This document shows, piece after piece, positions 37,197 through 46,890 of a DNA stretch of 64,000 bases. The notes under the pieces are model-generated. The model was not told where the DNA came from, searched no databases, and saw only the letters and a program-made list of their open reading frames with translations. The stretch spans positions 682,001-746,000 of the forward strand of contig NZ_MWPH01000001.1 in the NCBI RefSeq assembly GCF_002177135.1, given 5' to 3'. Both the position numbers and the translations under genes were made by a program. Source of the stretch: Natronolimnobius baerhuensis. Its GTDB lineage: Archaea; Halobacteriota; Halobacteria; Halobacteriales; Natrialbaceae. Numbering within the stretch: position 1 is the stretch's first letter; each line of letters opens with the position of its first letter.

Positions 37197-39278
37197 CTAC
37201 AGCGAGAGCCCCGGACCGATGCCGTCGTTCCAGTGTAACGCATCATCAGCAAGCACTGGGAACTCGGTCCAGGTGAGGTACTCCTGGACGGCCTGCGAAT
37301 CAACCGTTGTTCGTGGCGTCGCTCCGGGTGTCAGGTGCCGGTCTTCGGCCGCCTCGAGCGTTGAGGCCGTTGTCGTCCCGAGTTTAAACTCCTTGGTTGA
37401 GTAGGAGGTCGCACCGAACTGGTAGGTTTCATCGTCGCGCTCGAGTTCGATGACCATCGGTGCGCCGCCGTCCGATTGGGCGATGTCCGTCGACCCGTCA
37501 CCGACGATGAGATACTGGTCGCCGAGTCGGGAATGCTCGCGTGCAATCTCGAGTGCGCCACGAAGCGGGAAGCCTCGATTGAGCAGTCGGGCCATCGTCT
37601 CGCCGGCATCGACTGCCTCCTCGTTTGGGACGTCCGCATACGTACTGACGCCGCCGAACGCGCCGCGACGAGTCAGTGCAAGCCCCTGTTCGTAGGAGCG
37701 ACAGGCGTTCAGGAAGAACACGCCGAGATCAACCGACTCGAGGGTTCGAACATCGAGGTCCCCGTCGGGACAGCGCAGACCGTCCTCCGTAGCGTGACCG
37801 ATGTAGTGGAGGAAGTCATAGCCTCCGTCGGCAAGCAGCGATGCGAGTTGGTCCGTATCGACGCCGAACGCCGAGTCGATTTCGAACGGAAGCGCGTCAC
37901 GATTGCCGTAGGTTTCATCGAGGAGGTCGTGTTCGGCGAGCATCCGGGCGTCGTTACACACGAGCAAGATCTCTATTGACTCGGTTCGCTCGTCGCGGGT
38001 GAGTTGATTCCGATAGGCTTCGAGCGTCGCTTTTGAGGCGTTCTGTGGGACGCCGTCGCTGAACCAGGCGTGTTCGACTGCCTCGTCAGTGACGTCGGGG
38101 ACGATAACTGACGGGCCGAGTTCGGTCACCTCCGAGGCTGGCGTGCGGGAACTGCTCGCCGAGCGAACGATCTGGGACTGTGGCGTCGATTCAACTGGGG
38201 GTGCCGTCTCGACGTGTTGCCCGCTCGAGGTCCGGATAATCCCGAGTTCGTTGACGATGAACGGGACGATTTCTGCCGTTTCCGGCTCAGCGTCGACGTG
38301 TGCCGTCAGCGGCCAGCGTGGAACATGCGGTTCGAGCAGGTCGTATGGAACCTCGAGATAGCGCTCGAGGCGGACCGGAAGCGGAGCCGCGTAGGTGTCG
38401 GCGAGGTCGAACGGCAACTCGTCTGCGAGCACTGTCCGCTCGTGGAACTCGTACTGAAAGAGGCCGTCAGTGCGGGTGAGACAATCGAGCAGGAAACATC
38501 GCTTGAGCAGTCTGGCGACCGACTCCTCGAGGGAGTGCTCCTCCGCGAGGAAGTGTGTACACTGTGGCGTCTTGAGTGCGGGCTCTTCGCCAGGACGGAG
38601 TGTCGCGCCGAGGAAAAACGCGAGCGGCGCAGCCTGATAGATCGCTTCGTATGTGGGCGGGATGATGAGTTCGATGTCGCTCGCTGGCTCGGTAATCGAG
38701 TCGGGAATCTCGAGTGTCTCGCCGAGTTCGATCAGCGGGGGATGCCCCCGGAGTGTCGGCCACGTTCGCTCTGGGGAGGTGGTTTTCAGGGCGGACGGAA
38801 GCGTCGAAATTGCCTGCATCACCGATTCGGGATTCGGTGACGTGGTGATCGTCCCCGCTGGCCGGTCGTGTGTCGAGCGAGCGCCAAGTATGACTGTCGC
38901 GGGTTCGTCGAACGTCAATCGAATCGACGTGAGTCCGCTCTCGAGTGTTGCACTCGCCTCGATGCGACAGTAGATCCTGATCGGGCCACTCAGTCCGATA
39001 AACTGCGGTCGATCCTCGAGGGGTACCGTTTCGCCCACGTCGACGGTTGCCTCGGTTTGGCCGTCCGGCCCGTGAAGCGTTGCTGAGTACGCCTGATTGA
39101 ACTCGAGTGTTGCTGTGCGAAAGCGACAGGCTCGATCAACCGGAAAACAGAAGCCATCGACGTCGACATCGGTGACCGACGAGTGCTCGTCGGTCCGCAC
39201 GTGGAGTCGCCGCTGCTCGATTGAATCGTAAATCTCGAGTCCGGTCGGCGACGTCGTCTGCGCAAACTCAATTGTCAT
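37197..39278 (-). CDS. CHAT-domain (caspase-like) protease
   Basis: A 693-residue protein. Residues about 430-640 form the CHAT domain with His495 in LHYIGHATEDG and Cys526 in FFLNACRSYEQG, the catalytic dyad. Upstream, about 1-350 is a beta-rich region with segments such as FNQAYSATLHGPDGQTEATV, and about 350-430 is a Ser/Thr/Pro linker; this part may be a sensor. CHAT proteases elsewhere act in programmed cell death or defence after activation by a partner. The only neighbour on the strand is the Orc1/Cdc6-like ATPase (130-base gap). No signal peptide is seen. Confidence 0.82.
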   Translation of the reverse strand: MTIEFAQTTSPTGLEIYDSIEQRRLHVRTDEHSSVTDVDVDGFCFPVDRACRFRTATLEFNQAYSATLHGPDGQTEATVDVGETVPLEDRPQFIGLSGPIRIYCRIEASATLESGLTSIRLTFDEPATVILGARSTHDRPAGTITTSPNPESVMQAISTLPSALKTTSPERTWPTLRGHPPLIELGETLEIPDSITEPASDIELIIPPTYEAIYQAAPLAFFLGATLRPGEEPALKTPQCTHFLAEEHSLEESVARLLKRCFLLDCLTRTDGLFQYEFHERTVLADELPFDLADTYAAPLPVRLERYLEVPYDLLEPHVPRWPLTAHVDAEPETAEIVPFIVNELGIIRTSSGQHVETAPPVESTPQSQIVRSASSSRTPASEVTELGPSVIVPDVTDEAVEHAWFSDGVPQNASKATLEAYRNQLTRDERTESIEILLVCNDARMLAEHDLLDETYGNRDALPFEIDSAFGVDTDQLASLLADGGYDFLHYIGHATEDGLRCPDGDLDVRTLESVDLGVFFLNACRSYEQGLALTRRGAFGGVSTYADVPNEEAVDAGETMARLLNRGFPLRGALEIAREHSRLGDQYLIVGDGSTDIAQSDGGAPMVIELERDDETYQFGATSYSTKEFKLGTTTASTLEAAEDRHLTPGATPRTTVDSQAVQEYLTWTEFPVLADDALHWNDGIGPGLSL

Positions 39279-39408
39279 GCTCGTCAGTCAATATGGGAGA
39301 TAACCCGTTCCACGACCAAAAAGCAACCTATCATTTCGGTCCCTGACTCGTCAGCCGACCGGATAACAGACCGTCTGACTGTCCAGCACTCTGTGGATGA
39401 CCCACAAC

Positions 39409-40560
39409 TCACTCGAGTTTCGTCTGACTCATCGCCCGAAACGGAATCGTCGGAATCCGTGGCTCGAGCGTACTCGGTCGACGGCCGCTTCCAGTACTCG
39501 GTAACGCGACGCGCTCGAGGACGCCCCGGTCGGCAAGTTCGTACAGCAGCCGCGTCACTGTGCTCTCGGTCAGTGCGGACTGCTCGGCAATCGCAGTCGC
39601 AAGTTCGCGAACCGGTTGGTCGGCTGCATCAATCGAAATGAGGTGTGACAAAACCTGTTGGCGCGTTTCAGAGAGCGCAAGTCCTCGGTCGAGGTGGACG
39701 CCATCCTCGTGGACGGCCTCCCAGGCCTGCTCGAGATGTGGCTGTTCGATTCGAGTTGCACCGTCCTCGGTCGCGAGGACGACCGCACTGAACAGCGCTG
39801 CAAGCGCGTCGTGTGCGTTCCCGTCCGCTCGGTCCGCCAGCGTCCGAATTAACTCGTGCTCGAGTGCACCCGGTGCGAGCCCAGTCGATGTGCGGTCTGT
39901 GATGACATCGACGAGTTCGTGATGGCGGTAGGCCGGCACTGAGACGGTCTGCCCGCCCCACTCTGCCGGGGGTTCCTGTCCCACCGCAACGAGAGACACA
40001 GCATCCGAAACTGGCTCGAGCAGCGTCGTAACGCGGCCGTAGGACAGGGTTTCGGGTTCGTCGTGGTGATCCAGTGCGATGACAGCCTGTCGGTCATGGC
40101 GCTCGAGACGGTCGCCGAGTCGTGTGCACAGTTCGTCCGTTCCGATGCCGCTCGTGGGGACCGACTCCGAAGAAATCGCTGCAAGGAGCGTTCGGTACAG
40201 CGCAAACGGACTGTCAACGCGGCGAGCATCGATGGTGACGAACCACGTAATCGGCCTCGAGCGGGAGCGAGTCGTCGTTCCGATTGCCCGATCCGCCTCG
40301 CCAAAGCGCTTGTTCATCACCTCGAACAGGGCGCTCACGAGTGCTGACGTTCCCGCACCAGCCGGCCCGGCAACAGCGACGGGGTCTGGCAACTGCTCGT
40401 CGAAGACTGGCTCGAGTGCATCGAGCAGGTCTTCGAAGACCGGCCCGCGCCCAATCGGCTCTGATCGGTGGACGGTTGGGCTGAGCTGATCGCGGTCGAC
40501 AACGATTTCCCGTGTCTGATGGGCAGACTGACGCCGAGCGATGCGATCCTGCAGATTCAT
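39409..40560 (-). CDS. Orc1/Cdc6-like AAA+ protein with degenerate Walker A
   Basis: A 383-residue protein. SEPIGRGPVFEDLLDALEPV matches the Orc1/Cdc6 entry region. The P-loop reads GPAGAGTS (65-72), with Thr71 in the place of the essential Lys. Walker B is IALDHHDE (162-168). YRHHELVDVITDRT and ADGNAHDALAALFSAV fit the lid domain, and a winged helix (about 305-370) ends the protein. Loss of Lys should weaken or abolish ATP binding, so it probably works as a DNA-binding or signalling scaffold. The ATG shares a base with the glpC stop (TGATG). The CHAT gene follows. Confidence 0.78.
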   Translation of the reverse strand: MNLQDRIARRQSAHQTREIVVDRDQLSPTVHRSEPIGRGPVFEDLLDALEPVFDEQLPDPVAVAGPAGAGTSALVSALFEVMNKRFGEADRAIGTTTRSRSRPITWFVTIDARRVDSPFALYRTLLAAISSESVPTSGIGTDELCTRLGDRLERHDRQAVIALDHHDEPETLSYGRVTTLLEPVSDAVSLVAVGQEPPAEWGGQTVSVPAYRHHELVDVITDRTSTGLAPGALEHELIRTLADRADGNAHDALAALFSAVVLATEDGATRIEQPHLEQAWEAVHEDGVHLDRGLALSETRQQVLSHLISIDAADQPVRELATAIAEQSALTESTVTRLLYELADRGVLERVALPSTGSGRRPSTLEPRIPTIPFRAMSQTKLE

Positions 40561-41915
40561 CAGTCAGCACTCGAGGGCGACTGAGACGGCTCTGACTCGA
40601 GGAGTGCTGCTGCGAGCACCTCGAGCGTGTGCGTGATTTCGTAGCCGGTTCCGTGTCCCATCTGCATCGAGCAGGTCGGACACTCGGTCAGGCCCTGCTC
40701 TGCGTCGGCGTGCTCCATGTGTTCGAACATCTCTTCCCCGATCTTCATTGAGGTTTCGTAGTTCTCCTCCTTCCAGCCGTAGGTACCCGAGATACCGGAA
40801 CAGGAGTCGCCCACGTCGTGTGCCTCGACGCCGTCGATTAACGCGAGAAGTTCGACCGTCTGTCCATCCAGCCCCTGATTGCGCGCGTGACACGGCGCGT
40901 GGTAGGCAAAGTCTTCGAACCGCTCGTCGTCGACTGACGCGTCCGCGAGCGCCGCCTCGAGGTCTTCGTGAACCCGGAGATATTCGACGGCATCCCAGGT
41001 GTTCGACGCGACGTCCTCGGTGCCCTCGAAGTCGAACAGTTCGGGGTACTCCTGGCGAATCGACATCGAACAGGAACTACAGGAGGCGACGATGTCCGCG
41101 CCGTCCTCGAGCGCAGCGGCGAGTTCGGAGACGTTGGTTTCCGTGGCTCTGCGGGCGTCCTCGAGCATGCCGTTTGCGAACATCGGCGTGCCCGAACAGG
41201 ACTGGTCGGGGACCATGACCTCGTAGCCGAAGTGCTCGTAGACGCGTACGAGGGCTTTGGCGACTTCGGGGGTGTTGTAGTTGGCGTAGCAGCCGTGGAA
41301 GTAGGCGATGCGTTTGTCTGGATTGTCTATCTTTGCACCGCCCCGCTTCGTCCACCACTCGCGGAACGTCTCCGTGGCGAACTCGGGGAGGTCCCGCTCG
41401 CTCGTGATTCCCATGACTTTCTCGCCGAGCCAACTCGTCACGGAGAGGCCGGTCACGAAGTTCGCCGTTCGCGGGAACATCGCACCCAGCGGCGCGAGCG
41501 TCCGGTAGTTCGCGAGCATCCGATTGCGCCAGTACTCGCGGGAGAATTTGCTCATGTTCTGCTCGACGTACTCCGCTCGCGCCGTGTTGTGCATCTGCGA
41601 CAGCGGCACCTCGGAGGGACAGGCGCTATCACAGCGCATGCAGTTCGAGCACTTCATCACTGAGTCGTCGATATCCTGATCCTCCTGGCGTTTGAGTCGC
41701 CACTGCTCGGGTCCCTGGAACTTCGGGCCGGGGAACTCGTCGTCGACCTCGGCGACGGGACAGTTCGTATCGCAGGTCGAGCACTTGTAACAGTTGTCCG
41801 CCCCCGGCCGGAGGTCCATCTCCTCGGCCTCGGGGAACACCTGTATCGGCTCGAACTCGTCGTCGCTGTCTGTACCCGGTCCGTGATCGTCCGTCGGTTG
41901 TTCTGCATCACTCAT
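40560..41915 (-). CDS. glpC: Anaerobic-type glycerol-3-phosphate dehydrogenase subunit C
   Basis: A 451-residue iron-sulfur subunit that passes electrons from GlpA towards quinone. It has two 4Fe-4S motifs, CYKCSTCDTNCPVAE and CSNCMRCDSACPSE, then two CCG domains (SCSGTPMF; ASCSSCSMS; HAPCHARNQ; ECPTCSMQM). The N terminus is an acidic leader of about 20 residues. The ATG at 41915 is the only start codon in frame before the first cluster. A 16-codon mini-frame couples it to glpB. The stop overlaps the Orc/Cdc6-like gene. Confidence 0.93.
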   Translation of the reverse strand: MSDAEQPTDDHGPGTDSDDEFEPIQVFPEAEEMDLRPGADNCYKCSTCDTNCPVAEVDDEFPGPKFQGPEQWRLKRQEDQDIDDSVMKCSNCMRCDSACPSEVPLSQMHNTARAEYVEQNMSKFSREYWRNRMLANYRTLAPLGAMFPRTANFVTGLSVTSWLGEKVMGITSERDLPEFATETFREWWTKRGGAKIDNPDKRIAYFHGCYANYNTPEVAKALVRVYEHFGYEVMVPDQSCSGTPMFANGMLEDARRATETNVSELAAALEDGADIVASCSSCSMSIRQEYPELFDFEGTEDVASNTWDAVEYLRVHEDLEAALADASVDDERFEDFAYHAPCHARNQGLDGQTVELLALIDGVEAHDVGDSCSGISGTYGWKEENYETSMKIGEEMFEHMEHADAEQGLTECPTCSMQMGHGTGYEITHTLEVLAAALLESEPSQSPSSAD

Positions 41916-41962
41916 CGAATCACCTGACTCGTCGGCAGTCGCCGTCGCTGCTGTGTACTCAT
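41912..41962 (-). other. Mini-ORF joining glpB to glpC by two ATGA overlaps
   Basis: ATG at 41962 overlaps the glpB stop (ATGA), reads MSTQQRRRLPTSQVIR and stops at TGA inside the ATGA of the glpC start (41915). Because both junctions overlap, a ribosome finishing glpB could move through the mini-frame into glpC. The Arg-rich text is unlike haloarchaeal proteins, so a product is unlikely; the translation path may be what matters. Confidence 0.4.
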
Positions 41963-43347
41963 TCGCCCACCTCTTCGCCAGCCCGCTTGCCGGCGACGTA
42001 GCCCGTCGCGAGCGAAACGCCCGCGCCCGATTTCTCCGCCGCAAAGTCGTAGCCGCCCAGCACCGCACCGGCCGCCCGCAGATTCACAAACTCGAGCGTC
42101 CCGTCCGCTGCGAGCGGCCGAAGCTCTCGATCCGACTCGAGGCCAAAGCGGGCGAACGGCTGCTCGCCGAAGGCGTCGTCGACGAACCAGTCGTAGCGAT
42201 CCTCGGCATGGGGGACGTGACAGTCGAAAATCGGCTCGAACACGACGCCGGTCGCGTCGTTTTCAGCACTGCCCGCTCGCTCCGAGCGAACGCCTTTCCC
42301 GACGAGCCCGCCCGTCGCGAGGACGTACTGGTCGGCGCGGTGGGGGATTTCCGTCCCGTTGCGGTCGACGATGACGCGGTCGATCCGCTCGCCGTCACCT
42401 GGCGTCTCGCGGTCGCTGCCACCGTCGGCGGCGACCTCGTCGGCCGTTGCCGTCTCCGACGCGGCCACGGTCTCGGAGTCGTAGTCCACGACCGGGACGC
42501 CCGAGGTGACGCGAACGCCAGCATCCTCGAGTGCGTCGTAGAGCAGGTCCTCGAGTCGCATCCCCGGCAAACTGGGTGGTCCCATCGGGACCTCGAACAC
42601 GTCAACGCCGAGTGCGTCCGCGAGGGACTCGCGTACCTCGTCCGCGTGGTCGTCGCCCAGTATCGCGGGGAAGCCAACGCGGGATTCGTCCTCGAGGTGG
42701 GCGTCGACGAGTGAGACGAGCGCCTCGCGTGCGCCGGTAGTGGTCGTGCCCATCGTGATCGACTCGTTTCGCTCGAGCAGGTGGGCATACCGCGTCACCT
42801 TCGCGTCGTCGCGCTCGATGCCGGGGAACGCGAGCGTGACGCCGCGGGTATCGAAGGGGACGCCCGCGGCCTCGAGATGCGCTGCCGCGAGCGGGGCGTC
42901 GAAGTCCGGCAGGGTTTCGAAGCCGACGAGCAGCGTGTCGCGGTCGTCGCTCGCGAGTCCGGCGGCGGTCGCGGCCGGATAGCGGGCGGTCGGTTTGACC
43001 GTTCCGCCATGGGTCGGCACGAGCGCGTTCGTCTCGGTGTGGTCGCCCGCGTAGGCGTCGCCCGTAATCTCGTCGAACAACGCCAGCGCATCGCGGACGG
43101 CGTCGGTGCCGACGCGCTGGTAGGGGTGACTGTCGGGCAGGTCCTCGAGTGCGTCGAACGGATCAGCAAGCGGCCCCGTTCCATCCGGCGTGTAGCCGAG
43201 CACGTCGATCAACCCACTGGCGCTGCGCAGCGTGCTCTGTTTGTACGTGACCAGGCGAACTCGATCAGTGTGCTCGGCGGCCGAAAGCGCGGCCATCGAG
43301 CCGGCAATCCCGCCGCCGATCACGAGCACGTCGTCTTCGATTGCCAT
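41959..43347 (-). CDS. glpB: Anaerobic-type glycerol-3-phosphate dehydrogenase subunit B
   Basis: A 462-residue FAD-binding anchor subunit. The start [21 protein letters not shown] is the dinucleotide-binding region, and YVLATGGLVGKGV follows in the second half. The ATG at 43347 was preferred to a GTG three codons upstream because GGAGGTG lies about 8 bases before it. The start overlaps the glpA end. It links GlpA and GlpC to the membrane. Confidence 0.9.
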   Translation of the reverse strand: MAIEDDVLVIGGGIAGSMAALSAAEHTDRVRLVTYKQSTLRSASGLIDVLGYTPDGTGPLADPFDALEDLPDSHPYQRVGTDAVRDALALFDEITGDAYAGDHTETNALVPTHGGTVKPTARYPAATAAGLASDDRDTLLVGFETLPDFDAPLAAAHLEAAGVPFDTRGVTLAFPGIERDDAKVTRYAHLLERNESITMGTTTTGAREALVSLVDAHLEDESRVGFPAILGDDHADEVRESLADALGVDVFEVPMGPPSLPGMRLEDLLYDALEDAGVRVTSGVPVVDYDSETVAASETATADEVAADGGSDRETPGDGERIDRVIVDRNGTEIPHRADQYVLATGGLVGKGVRSERAGSAENDATGVVFEPIFDCHVPHAEDRYDWFVDDAFGEQPFARFGLESDRELRPLAADGTLEFVNLRAAGAVLGGYDFAAEKSGAGVSLATGYVAGKRAGEEVGE

Positions 43348-43348
43348 C

Positions 43349-45058
43349 TCAGGCACCTCCGTCGAAGGCCGCGTACTCGAGTGCGTCCTCGCTCGGCTGT
43401 GCGTCCCTGTTTGGCTGTGCGTCCCCCGGTCGGCCCGCGGGATCGCGATCTCGGTTCATCGTCGTCGCGTGGAGGGCGTAGTTGAGCATCGCCTGAGAGA
43501 GTTGCTGGCCCCACAGGGCGTGGCGTTCGCCCTTCCAGCGCTCCTGGAATAGTTCGTTGAGGGCGGCTCGAGTCGTCTCCTCGTCGTAGGTAGGATGGAG
43601 TTCGTTCGCCATGTTCTGACAGCAAAAGCCGCCCTGACAGTTGCCCATCGAGGCGCGGGTGCGGATCCGAACCGCGTTCAGGTCCGAGCCAGACTGGGCG
43701 ATTGCATCCTGAATCTCTGCGCGGGTGACGCCCTCACACTGACAGATGACGGGATTCGGCTCGTCGGTCTCGAGGACAGCCTGTGAGCGACTGCCCAGAC
43801 GCTGTTTGCTCCGGCGGGCGACGGGCGAGCGCAGGCCGAAGTCGTCCATCGCATCCTCGAGTCGCGCGAGGTTTTCGCTGCCGGGCAGTGACTCCTCGGC
43901 GGTGGCACACGACGCGCGGACGCCGAGTTTCGCACAGACGTGATCGGCGATTTCCTCGCCCATCGCGCGGTAGGTCGTGAACTTCCCGCCGACGATGCTC
44001 GCCATGCCCGAAACGCCGTCGCGGTCGTCGTGATCCAGCAGGAAGAAATCGCGCGTAATGTCGGTCGGGTCGGTCGTACCGGTCCCCGGCGGTTCGTACA
44101 GCGGGCGCACGCCCCAAAACGACCGGATCGTCCGGGCGTCCTCGAGAATCGGGACGAGTTCGGAGAGCGTGTCGATCATCTGATCGACCTCCCAGCGCTC
44201 CTCGGGGTAGTCGTCGGGGTCGGCAACTTCCTCGTCCGTGGTTCCCAAAATCGCGGTCGTCTCGTGGGGCACGATGATGTCGGCGTCGCCTTTCGGCCGG
44301 CAGCGGTTGATGACGGTGTCGACCTGCCGGACGTTCATGATCGTCATGACGCCCTTCGAGGGTCGAACCTCGATCTCGAGGTCGGCCATCGCGCCGATCT
44401 GACCGGCCCACGCGCCGCTCGCGTTGACGACGTACTCGGCGGTGATCTCCTCGGTCGTGCCAGGCGTCGCGTGCGTCCGCTTGCCGGGGCCGGACTCGTG
44501 GCGCACCTCGACGCCGTAGATGTCGTCGCCCTCGCGCAGGAGGTCGATGACCTCCGCGTGGGTCTCGATGCGCGCGCCGTGGGCCTCCGCGTCGAGTGCG
44601 TTCGCGACGCAGAGGCGGAACGGATCAATTGCGCCGTCAGGCACTTCGATTGCCCGTTTGGTATCCGTCGCGAGATAAGGTTCGACCTCGCGGGCCTCGC
44701 GTCCCGAAAGCACGCGCGCCGGAATGTCGCAGTCGCGACACCCCTCGAGTTTTTCCTCGAAGTACGCGTCCGGATCCTCCGGGCGCTGGACGAACAGGCC
44801 ACTGGTTTCCTCGACGCAGTGGCCCGCAATATCGCGCAGAATCTGGTTTTCCTCGATACACTCCGTCGCGCTGGCCTGGTCGGAAACCGCGTACCGACCG
44901 CCGCTGTGGAGGAGTCCGTGCATTCGGCCGGTCGTTCCGTCCGTTAGATTGCCTCGTTCGACGAGGGTGACCTCGAGGCCGCGCATTGCCAGATCTCTGG
45001 CGATGCCACAGCCGGTCGAGCCGCCGCCGATAACGAGGACGTCGGTGTCCCGTGCCAT
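43349..45058 (-). CDS. glpA: Glycerol-3-phosphate dehydrogenase subunit A (catalytic)
   Basis: A 569-residue flavoprotein that oxidises glycerol 3-phosphate to dihydroxyacetone phosphate. [20 protein letters not shown] is the FAD site, with [20 protein letters not shown] for flavin binding and [13 protein letters not shown] near the active site. The C-terminal BFD-like [2Fe-2S] domain has [10 protein letters not shown] and [10 protein letters not shown]. The ATG at 45058 was chosen over an upstream one because the FAD motif starts right after it. It diverges from glpK. Confidence 0.94.
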
Positions 45059-45232
45059 CCCTTCACTCTCACTACCGTCGCGGCACCTCTTTATTTTATT
45101 GGTGCACCCCATAACGACCATAACAATCACAAACAGTAGTGAGTAGAGCAGAAATTCTCGAGTGACAGAACGACCTAACTGGTCGTCAATGTAGACCGTA
45201 TTCGGCGCTTAAACGTCGTATCTGGGTGAGTA

Positions 45233-45266: not shown

Positions 45267-45275
45267 AATTTTATA
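45267..45275 (+). promoter_or_regulatory. TATA-like box of glpK
   Basis: AATTTTATA. The predicted start near 45300 gives a leader of about 50 bases before the ATG at 45349, unlike the leaderless promoters elsewhere here. The leader contains AGGGAG about 8 bases before the start. Confidence 0.5.
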
Positions 45276-45348
45276 CTGATTGTCCGTTTTGTTTACTAAC
45301 GCCACGCAATTAGCAGTAAAGATAATGCGTGATCGCAGGGAGACACTC

Positions 45349-46890
45349 ATGACAGCAAACACGTACGTCGGCGCAATTGATCAGGGAACGACCGGCACAC
45401 GATTCATCATCTTCGACCACAGCGGATCGGTCGTCGCGAACGCCTACGAAAAGCACGAACAGTACTACCCGGAACCCGGCTGGGTCGAACACGACGCGAT
45501 GGAAATCTGGGAGAATACCAAAACCGTCACGACGCAGGCACTCGGGCAGGCCGGCATCAGCCCCGAGCAACTCGAGGCCATCGGCGTGACCAACCAGCGC
45601 GAGACGACGGTGCTGTGGGACGCAGATACCGGGAAGCCAGTGCATAACGCCATCGTCTGGCAGGACCGACGGACCACCGAACGCGTCGAAGAACTCGAGG
45701 AGGAAGGCAAAGTCGAGGACATCCGGGCAAAAACCGGCCTCGAGGCCGACGCCTACTTCGCGGCGACGAAAGCCGAGTGGCTCCTCGAAGAGGGCGATCC
45801 GATCAAGATGGAGCGATCTCGCCCGTCGGACGTTCGCGACCGGGCCGAAGAGGGCGACGTGCTCTTTGGCACCATCGATAGCTGGCTGATCTACAACCTC
45901 ACCGGCGAGCACATCACCGAGGTCACGAACGCCTCGCGGACAATGTTGTACAACATCCACGACCTCGAGTGGGACGACGAGTTACTCGAGGAGTTCTCGA
46001 TTCCCAAGAAGATGTTGCCCGAGGTTCGCCCCTCGAGCGACGAAGAGACCTACGGAAAGACCGATCCGGAGGGCTTCCTCGAGGCCGAAATTCCGGTCGC
46101 AGGCGCACTGGGCGACCAGCAGGCGGCGCTGTTCGGCCAGACCTGTTTCGACGCCGGCGACGCAAAGAACACCTACGGGACCGGCTCCTTCTTCCTGATG
46201 AACACCGGCAACGAGGCCGTCACCTCCGATCACGGCCTGCTGACGACCATCGGCTTCCAGCGCTCCGGTGATGACGTCCAGTACGCACTCGAGGGCTCGA
46301 TCTTCGTCACCGGCGCAGCCATCGAGTGGCTCGAGGACGTCGACCTGATCGATGACCCCACCGAGACCGCAGAACTCGCTCGCAGCGTCGACTCGACGGA
46401 CGGCGTCTACGTCGTGCCCGCCTTCACCGGCCTCGGCGCGCCTCATTGGGACCAGCGCGCACGCGGCACTATCGTTGGCATGACGCGTGGCACCCGCAAG
46501 GAGCACATCGTCCGGGCAACACTCGAGTCGATTGCCTACCAGACGCGCGACGTCGCCGAGGCGATGGAAGCCGATTCGGGCATCGAAATGTCCTCGCTGA
46601 AAGTCGACGGCGGCGCAGTCAAGAACAACTTCCTCTGTCAGTTGCAGTCTGACATCATCGGCTCGGAGATTGTCCGCCCCGTCGTCGACGAGACGACCGC
46701 GCTCGGGTCGGCCTACGCTGCTGGACTCGCCGTTGGCTACTGGGACGACCTCGAGGAACTGCGGGACAACTGGCGCGTCGACCGCGAGTTCGAGCCGTCA
46801 ATGGCGCGGTCCGTTGCGGATCGACGGTACGGTCGCTGGAACGACGCCGTCGACCGGTCGCGTGATTGGGCGCGTGACGGCGAGGAGTAA
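45349..46890 (+). CDS. glpK: Glycerol kinase
   Basis: A 513-residue FGGY-family kinase that makes glycerol 3-phosphate. TYVGAIDQGTTGTRFIIFDH is the phosphate-binding start; GVTNQRETTVLWD and AGALGDQQAALFGQTCFDAG are family signatures. AGLAVGYWDDLEEL lies near the C terminus. The ATG at 45349 was chosen by similarity and an SD-like AGGGAG. It is followed after two bases by the membrane protein gene at 46893. Confidence 0.96.
   Translation: MTANTYVGAIDQGTTGTRFIIFDHSGSVVANAYEKHEQYYPEPGWVEHDAMEIWENTKTVTTQALGQAGISPEQLEAIGVTNQRETTVLWDADTGKPVHNAIVWQDRRTTERVEELEEEGKVEDIRAKTGLEADAYFAATKAEWLLEEGDPIKMERSRPSDVRDRAEEGDVLFGTIDSWLIYNLTGEHITEVTNASRTMLYNIHDLEWDDELLEEFSIPKKMLPEVRPSSDEETYGKTDPEGFLEAEIPVAGALGDQQAALFGQTCFDAGDAKNTYGTGSFFLMNTGNEAVTSDHGLLTTIGFQRSGDDVQYALEGSIFVTGAAIEWLEDVDLIDDPTETAELARSVDSTDGVYVVPAFTGLGAPHWDQRARGTIVGMTRGTRKEHIVRATLESIAYQTRDVAEAMEADSGIEMSSLKVDGGAVKNNFLCQLQSDIIGSEIVRPVVDETTALGSAYAAGLAVGYWDDLEELRDNWRVDREFEPSMARSVADRRYGRWNDAVDRSRDWARDGEE

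Follow-up and report, generated by a model that had tools for sequence, protein, structure and literature searches.

The window, a 64,000-nucleotide stretch of the Natronolimnobius baerhuensis genome, contains glycerol genes arranged around a divergent glpA–glpK promoter. On the plus strand lies glpK (45349..46890, start MTANTYVG); on the minus strand the order, read outward from the same promoter, is glpA (43349..45058, start MARDTDV), glpB (41959..43356, named from gene order and homology by its place in the conserved glp block), glpC (40560..41915), a gene for an ORC-like ATPase homologue (39409..40560) and a gene for a CHAT-fold protease (37197..39278). GlpC, subunit C of the anaerobic glycerol-3-phosphate (G3P) dehydrogenase, matches NCBIfam NF008369 at 7e-175. 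Base 40560 belongs both to the ATG of the ORC-like gene and to the TGA of glpC, a one-base overlap already pointed out in the initial annotation of this locus and seen here again.

The ORC-like protein, a 383-residue pseudo-ATPase with a C-terminal winged helix-turn-helix (wHTH) and a predicted glp regulator of the orc15 type, was characterized by Pfam, PDB profile searches, AlphaFold2/Foldseek and its active-site columns. It belongs to the Orc1/Cdc6 superfamily fold, with an AAA+ core, a Cdc6-type lid and a C-terminal winged helix. In the window protein AAA_16, Cdc6_lid and HTH_IclR pass the Pfam cut-off, the last of these in the C-terminal domain; a PDB profile search matched 2qby (6e-17), 2v1u and 1fnn. 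The AlphaFold model (pLDDT 86, pTM 0.83) retrieves archaeal Cdc6/Orc1 structures on top in Foldseek (2qby_A, E 4e-19). Cdc6_C (PF09079) was unmatched in the window protein and in three homologues, with two true Orc paralogues, taken as a control, matching it at 1e-19 to 1e-22, and against NCBIfam TIGR02928 (orc1/cdc6) the protein scores 80.8 bits, below the curated cut-off of 181.3. A viral origin of the gene was considered and dropped, as a search of viral contigs returned no relatives. A second ORC-like paralogue, of 38% identity and with the P-loop lysine kept, is encoded at two other loci (L110 8139-9284 and L113 8114-9277), directly 3' of ugpB/ugpC-like G3P-transporter genes; near these paralogues no strict copy of the N19 promoter dyad described below was found.

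The P-loop of the window protein reads GPAGAGTS and places Thr71 at the Walker A lysine position, as the initial annotation had stated, yet that picture was incomplete: reading the active-site columns of the family against bona fide Orc paralogues of the same genome shows that the loss extends, family-wide, to Walker B, sensor 1, the Arg finger and sensor 2. The Walker B glutamate is replaced by histidine (DH for DE) in 73/73 sequences and the sensor 2 arginine by histidine in 72/73, and the sensor 1 asparagine and the Arg-finger loop are absent throughout. Compared with an initiator-type active ATPase (Walker A Lys, Walker B DE, sensor 1 Asn, sensor 2 Arg, Arg finger), the protein falls short. 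Sampled homologues of other haloarchaeal families retain the Walker A lysine, and in 36 of the 37 members of a Natrialbaceae clade (support 100/99) threonine replaces it, which points to a single loss at the base of this clade and one nested reversion (L115). The missing lysine is not confined to the window: close orthologues are without it as well, and the only sequences that have it are more distant ones and the one revertant. Read from alignment and phylogeny, the lysine loss is a later, clade-wide step, real and conserved. Since Walker B, sensor 1, the Arg finger and sensor 2 are gone family-wide, the protein is unlikely to have hydrolysed ATP even before the lysine was lost.

The initial annotation had tied the ATPase to glycerol metabolism, and the wider survey agrees with it. 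Across 392 Halobacteriales genomes, the ORC-like gene and GlpC occur together in 263, the ORC-like gene alone in 11, GlpC alone in 40 and neither in 78, as called by an order-wide search in which scoring was limited to the few best candidates of each genome; the genomes counted are related, the Fisher test on co-occurrence ignores phylogeny, and the co-occurrence is correlational. Some of the 11 genomes with only the ORC-like gene are search misses, as direct reading places glpC next to it in G157, G151, G289 and G228. The position of the gene varies, being 3' of glpC, between glpA and glpK, 3' of glpK, or divergent from glpA, and because gene order differs between loci the link amounts to more than simple synteny. 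Where the glpC–ATPase order is present, the glpC link also holds at the level of the junction, with a start overlap of 1 or 4 nt in 29 of 46 loci. Exceptions are G226 and G298, which carry the ORC-like gene apart from glpABC. As read from these gene orders, the comparison shows linkage to glpABC/glpK in nearly all haloarchaea possessing the gene. A search of glp loci lacking the gene for a replacement regulator found nothing consistent. In one genome without it, a Fic-like protein (recognized by eye) with an HTH-like end is encoded between glpK and glpA (L090 1998-3152).

Alignment of the glpA–glpK intergenic region revealed a conserved element immediately 3' of the glpK TATA box. In the window, sequence and alignment place a TATA-like box, TTTTATAC, at 45269..45276 (plus strand), and the predicted glpK operator, the dyad TTTACTAACGCCACGCAATTAGCAGTAAA (TTTAY-N19-RTAAA; 45292..45320, plus strand), starts about 16 bp downstream of it, over the expected start site. 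The dyad has the form TTTAC-N19-GTAAA, a 29-bp site with 24 bp between half-sites. A weaker dyad, TTATG-N19-ATAAA (45095..45123, minus strand), lies upstream of glpA as a predicted second operator. Upstream of glpK, TTTAY-N19-RTAAM occurs in 96 of the 104 loci that carry the ORC-like gene and in none of the 17 that do not; other spacings occur in 0-4 of 121 loci, spacing 24 excepted, a signal that we attribute to the TATA box. Three of the eight misses (L137, L142, L218) have a degenerate glpK copy together with a strict dyad in the divergent glpA/ORC promoter. Among further genomes lacking the gene, from which G115 was left out as a contig-end artefact (glpC cut at base 1), a strict dyad was present in 1 of 13 (G399; L239 / L258), a genome that is 88% complete. 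At glpA, 78 of the 104 loci that have the gene show the N19 geometry, against 0 of the 19 that lack it; the 78 are counted on the RTAARRTAAAG half and most have NTTAY at the N19 position. Gene and dyad also go together within genera: both are present in G050 and absent from G051, present in G082 and absent from G085, and present in G228 and G248 and absent from G140, G184, G191, G198 and G238. By this comparison, most genomes with the gene are shown to have the dyad at both promoters, that of glpK and that of glpA, and those without the gene to lack it. Since the 3.9-Mb window genome holds five exact dyad matches, one of them at glpK, and seven matches to the backward control pattern, it is position and conservation, not pattern count, that distinguish the glpK dyad as an apparently rather specific target. 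In the glpK promoters of L235, L236 and L239, two or three dyad-like sites flank the TATA box.

Haloferax-like loci (L140, L266-L273, L278, L279), all but L140 of which lie outside the 104-locus dyad count, differ from the window: they have the ORC-like gene, yet the promoters examined lack the N19 dyad. All that is conserved there is a half-site, GTAGTAAAG, beside the TATA box of glpK, and GGTAAAATAAAGTG at glpA. Inverted repeats in these promoters are reportedly described in a 2011 J. Bacteriol. paper on the Haloferax volcanii G3P dehydrogenase. The H. volcanii gene orc15 (HVO_1537) is the likely counterpart of the ORC-like gene, an orthology that we presume from position, the Haloferax-like gene being divergent from glpA, and from the H. 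volcanii glp locus tags.

The glpK leader holds a further element, a hairpin CACGCA...TGCGTG enclosing CAGTAAA (45303..45331, plus strand) and surrounding the 3' half-site of the glpK dyad, whose stem is kept while its sequence differs between lineages. In a swap test on 48 non-redundant leaders, the mean stem score was 17.96; with 3' parts exchanged between genomes it was 14.78 (sd 0.44; highest of 300, 16.1). By minimum-energy folding the window leader is no better than its shuffles (z -0.28) and two relatives reach z < -3; because the window leader folds like its shuffles, the hairpin rests on the comparison and not on the window alone. The stem may act in the RNA, as a 5' hairpin, or reflect a second symmetry of the DNA. 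A known RNA element was dropped from consideration, as an Rfam search of the leader gave no match. Covarying hairpins enclosing CNGTAAA are also seen in the glpK leaders of relatives, e.g., L103, L133 and L128.

We consider it likely that the ORC-like protein, derived from an Orc1/Cdc6 replication initiator, has become a transcription regulator dedicated to the glp genes. Its action is probably repressing, a direction that we infer over activation for one reason, the overlap of the dyad with the expected glpK start site. We envision that a dimer would bind the dyad through its wHTH domains, at half-sites spaced 24 bp apart, and that the bound dimer would cover the glpK start site and repress the glpK and glpA transcripts. 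A signal, most likely glycerol or G3P and perhaps bound in the old nucleotide pocket, would then release the repressor. Because the ORC-like gene ends the glpABC operon here, the protein would control its own synthesis. A fuller scenario, which we put forward tentatively and would sooner doubt than defend in all its parts, is that an AAA+ replication initiator was co-opted as a repressor of metabolic genes, losing hydrolysis early and ATP binding later in one clade; that the former nucleotide pocket senses G3P or glycerol; that the paralogue does likewise for G3P transport (ugp); and that the glpK-leader hairpin provides a second layer at the RNA level.

The control of glycerol metabolism in haloarchaea was described in late 2025 as "not yet fully understood" (PMC12853182), and the present analysis names a candidate glp regulator, predicts the site that it would bind, and points to a likely counterpart in a model organism, so far listed solely as a replication initiator. 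With the Orc1/Cdc6 initiators (2qby, SsoOrc1-1/1-3; 2v1u, ApeOrc1) the protein shares the AAA+ domain, the lid and the C-terminal winged helix; unlike them, it has no Walker B Glu, sensor 1 Asn, Arg-finger loop, sensor 2 Arg or Cdc6_C, and, as far as tested, its gene does not lie at an origin. A functional parallel may be Orc1-2 of Saccharolobus islandicus, a non-initiator Orc that acts as a transcription regulator of the DNA-damage response, keeps Walker A and B, requires ATP binding and hydrolysis, and recognizes an asymmetric site, the DDRE ANTTTC (PMC9738581). The likeness lies in a non-initiator Orc serving as a transcription regulator, a role that is predicted for the ORC-like protein; in contrast to Orc1-2, its ATPase site is dismantled, with no functional Walker A and B of the Orc1-2 type, its predicted site is a long dyad, and its target would be a metabolic operon. 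If our reading is true, haloarchaea, with their many "orc" genes, have some that are unrelated to replication, and the family offers a clean case of stepwise AAA+ active-site loss with the fold and the DNA-binding role kept.

Three other readings of the locus have to be weighed against a dedicated glp regulator. The dyads might be owned by another regulator, such as TrmB or GlpR, with the ORC-like protein serving as a scaffold or enzyme regulator. The half-sites TTTACT/AGTAAA do contain TACT/AGTA, which resembles TrmB half-sites, but each of the 22 genomes tested encodes TrmB (PF11495), among them the ones that have neither the ORC-like gene nor the dyad; TrmB was rejected as the owner because the joint loss of gene and dyad would go unexplained, and we regard this reading as a whole as unlikely. 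The initial annotation had suggested a pseudo-ORC acting as a protein scaffold: the degenerate ORC stands, while a scaffold appears less likely than a DNA-binding regulator because the wHTH is retained and the promoter dyads co-occur with the gene. To a replication initiator or origin-linked Orc lying beside glp by chance we give the slightest credence of all. Sequence and fold are those of Orc1/Cdc6, and HVO_1537 is indeed annotated as orc15 among the replication initiators of H. volcanii (PMC2841640; a literature search found no further publication naming it), but the active site is dismantled, the Cdc6_C domain is absent, and the gene is co-transmitted with glp rather than with an origin. 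Moreover, with its start overlapping glpC the gene has no upstream intergenic region, and no origin-like repeat array was noticed at the locus, where the gap on the downstream side measures just 130 bp; repeats do occur at several true orc loci of the same genome.

The neighbouring gene 3' of the ORC-like gene (37197..39278, minus strand, 693 residues) bears on the remaining reading, in which the ORC-like NTPase would sense a trigger and activate a CHAT protease, as in NTPase–CHAT defence or cell-death systems. The CHAT His/Cys dyad reported in the initial annotation is present, at His495/Cys526 in the motifs HYIGHA and LNACRS. Pfam did not reach a CHAT domain in the window protein, but an AlphaFold model of modest confidence (pLDDT 64) retrieves SAVED-CHAT (8tl0, E 6e-7) first in Foldseek and then separase, and on this model the product is a CHAT-fold protease with a caspase-like fold and both His and Cys. 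Counting the window protein and its homologues, 65 of 66 aligned rows conserve the GHA/NAC residues, and the Cys block of the one remaining row fails to align. The intact dyad, the resemblance to SAVED-CHAT and the adjacency of the two genes in many Natrialbaceae genomes would suit a sensor–effector pair, the interpretation offered initially. However, the genes show no association within the family (both in 51 genomes, CHAT only in 12, ATPase only in 31, neither in 2), so the pair is not co-conserved. Each persists by glp or aglB without the other, CHAT orthologues remaining beside glpC or aglB in genomes that lack the ATPase, and the ATPase is widespread at loci with no neighbouring CHAT gene. 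The two are also separated by 51-213 nt, in contrast to the coupled glpC–ATPase junction. PADLOC gave no match for the protease, and a defence system was dropped as an explanation. Likewise, although the caspase-like fold and His/Cys dyad are shared with SAVED-CHAT and separase, the N-terminal part differs, with no SAVED domain recognized and no defence context found. We therefore find a sensor–effector pair very improbable, and judge the CHAT gene, from its distribution, to be a separate neighbour rather than part of the putative regulatory unit formed by the ORC-like protein and the glp promoters. In L123, L124 and L204 the CHAT orthologue is split in two pieces and the ORC-like gene is intact. 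The orthologues are mostly confined to one taxonomic family. The protein is a member of a wider haloarchaeal protein family, of which a genome has several copies, and in some genomes of that same taxonomic family it is expanded to many, e.g., G031 with 13 matches.
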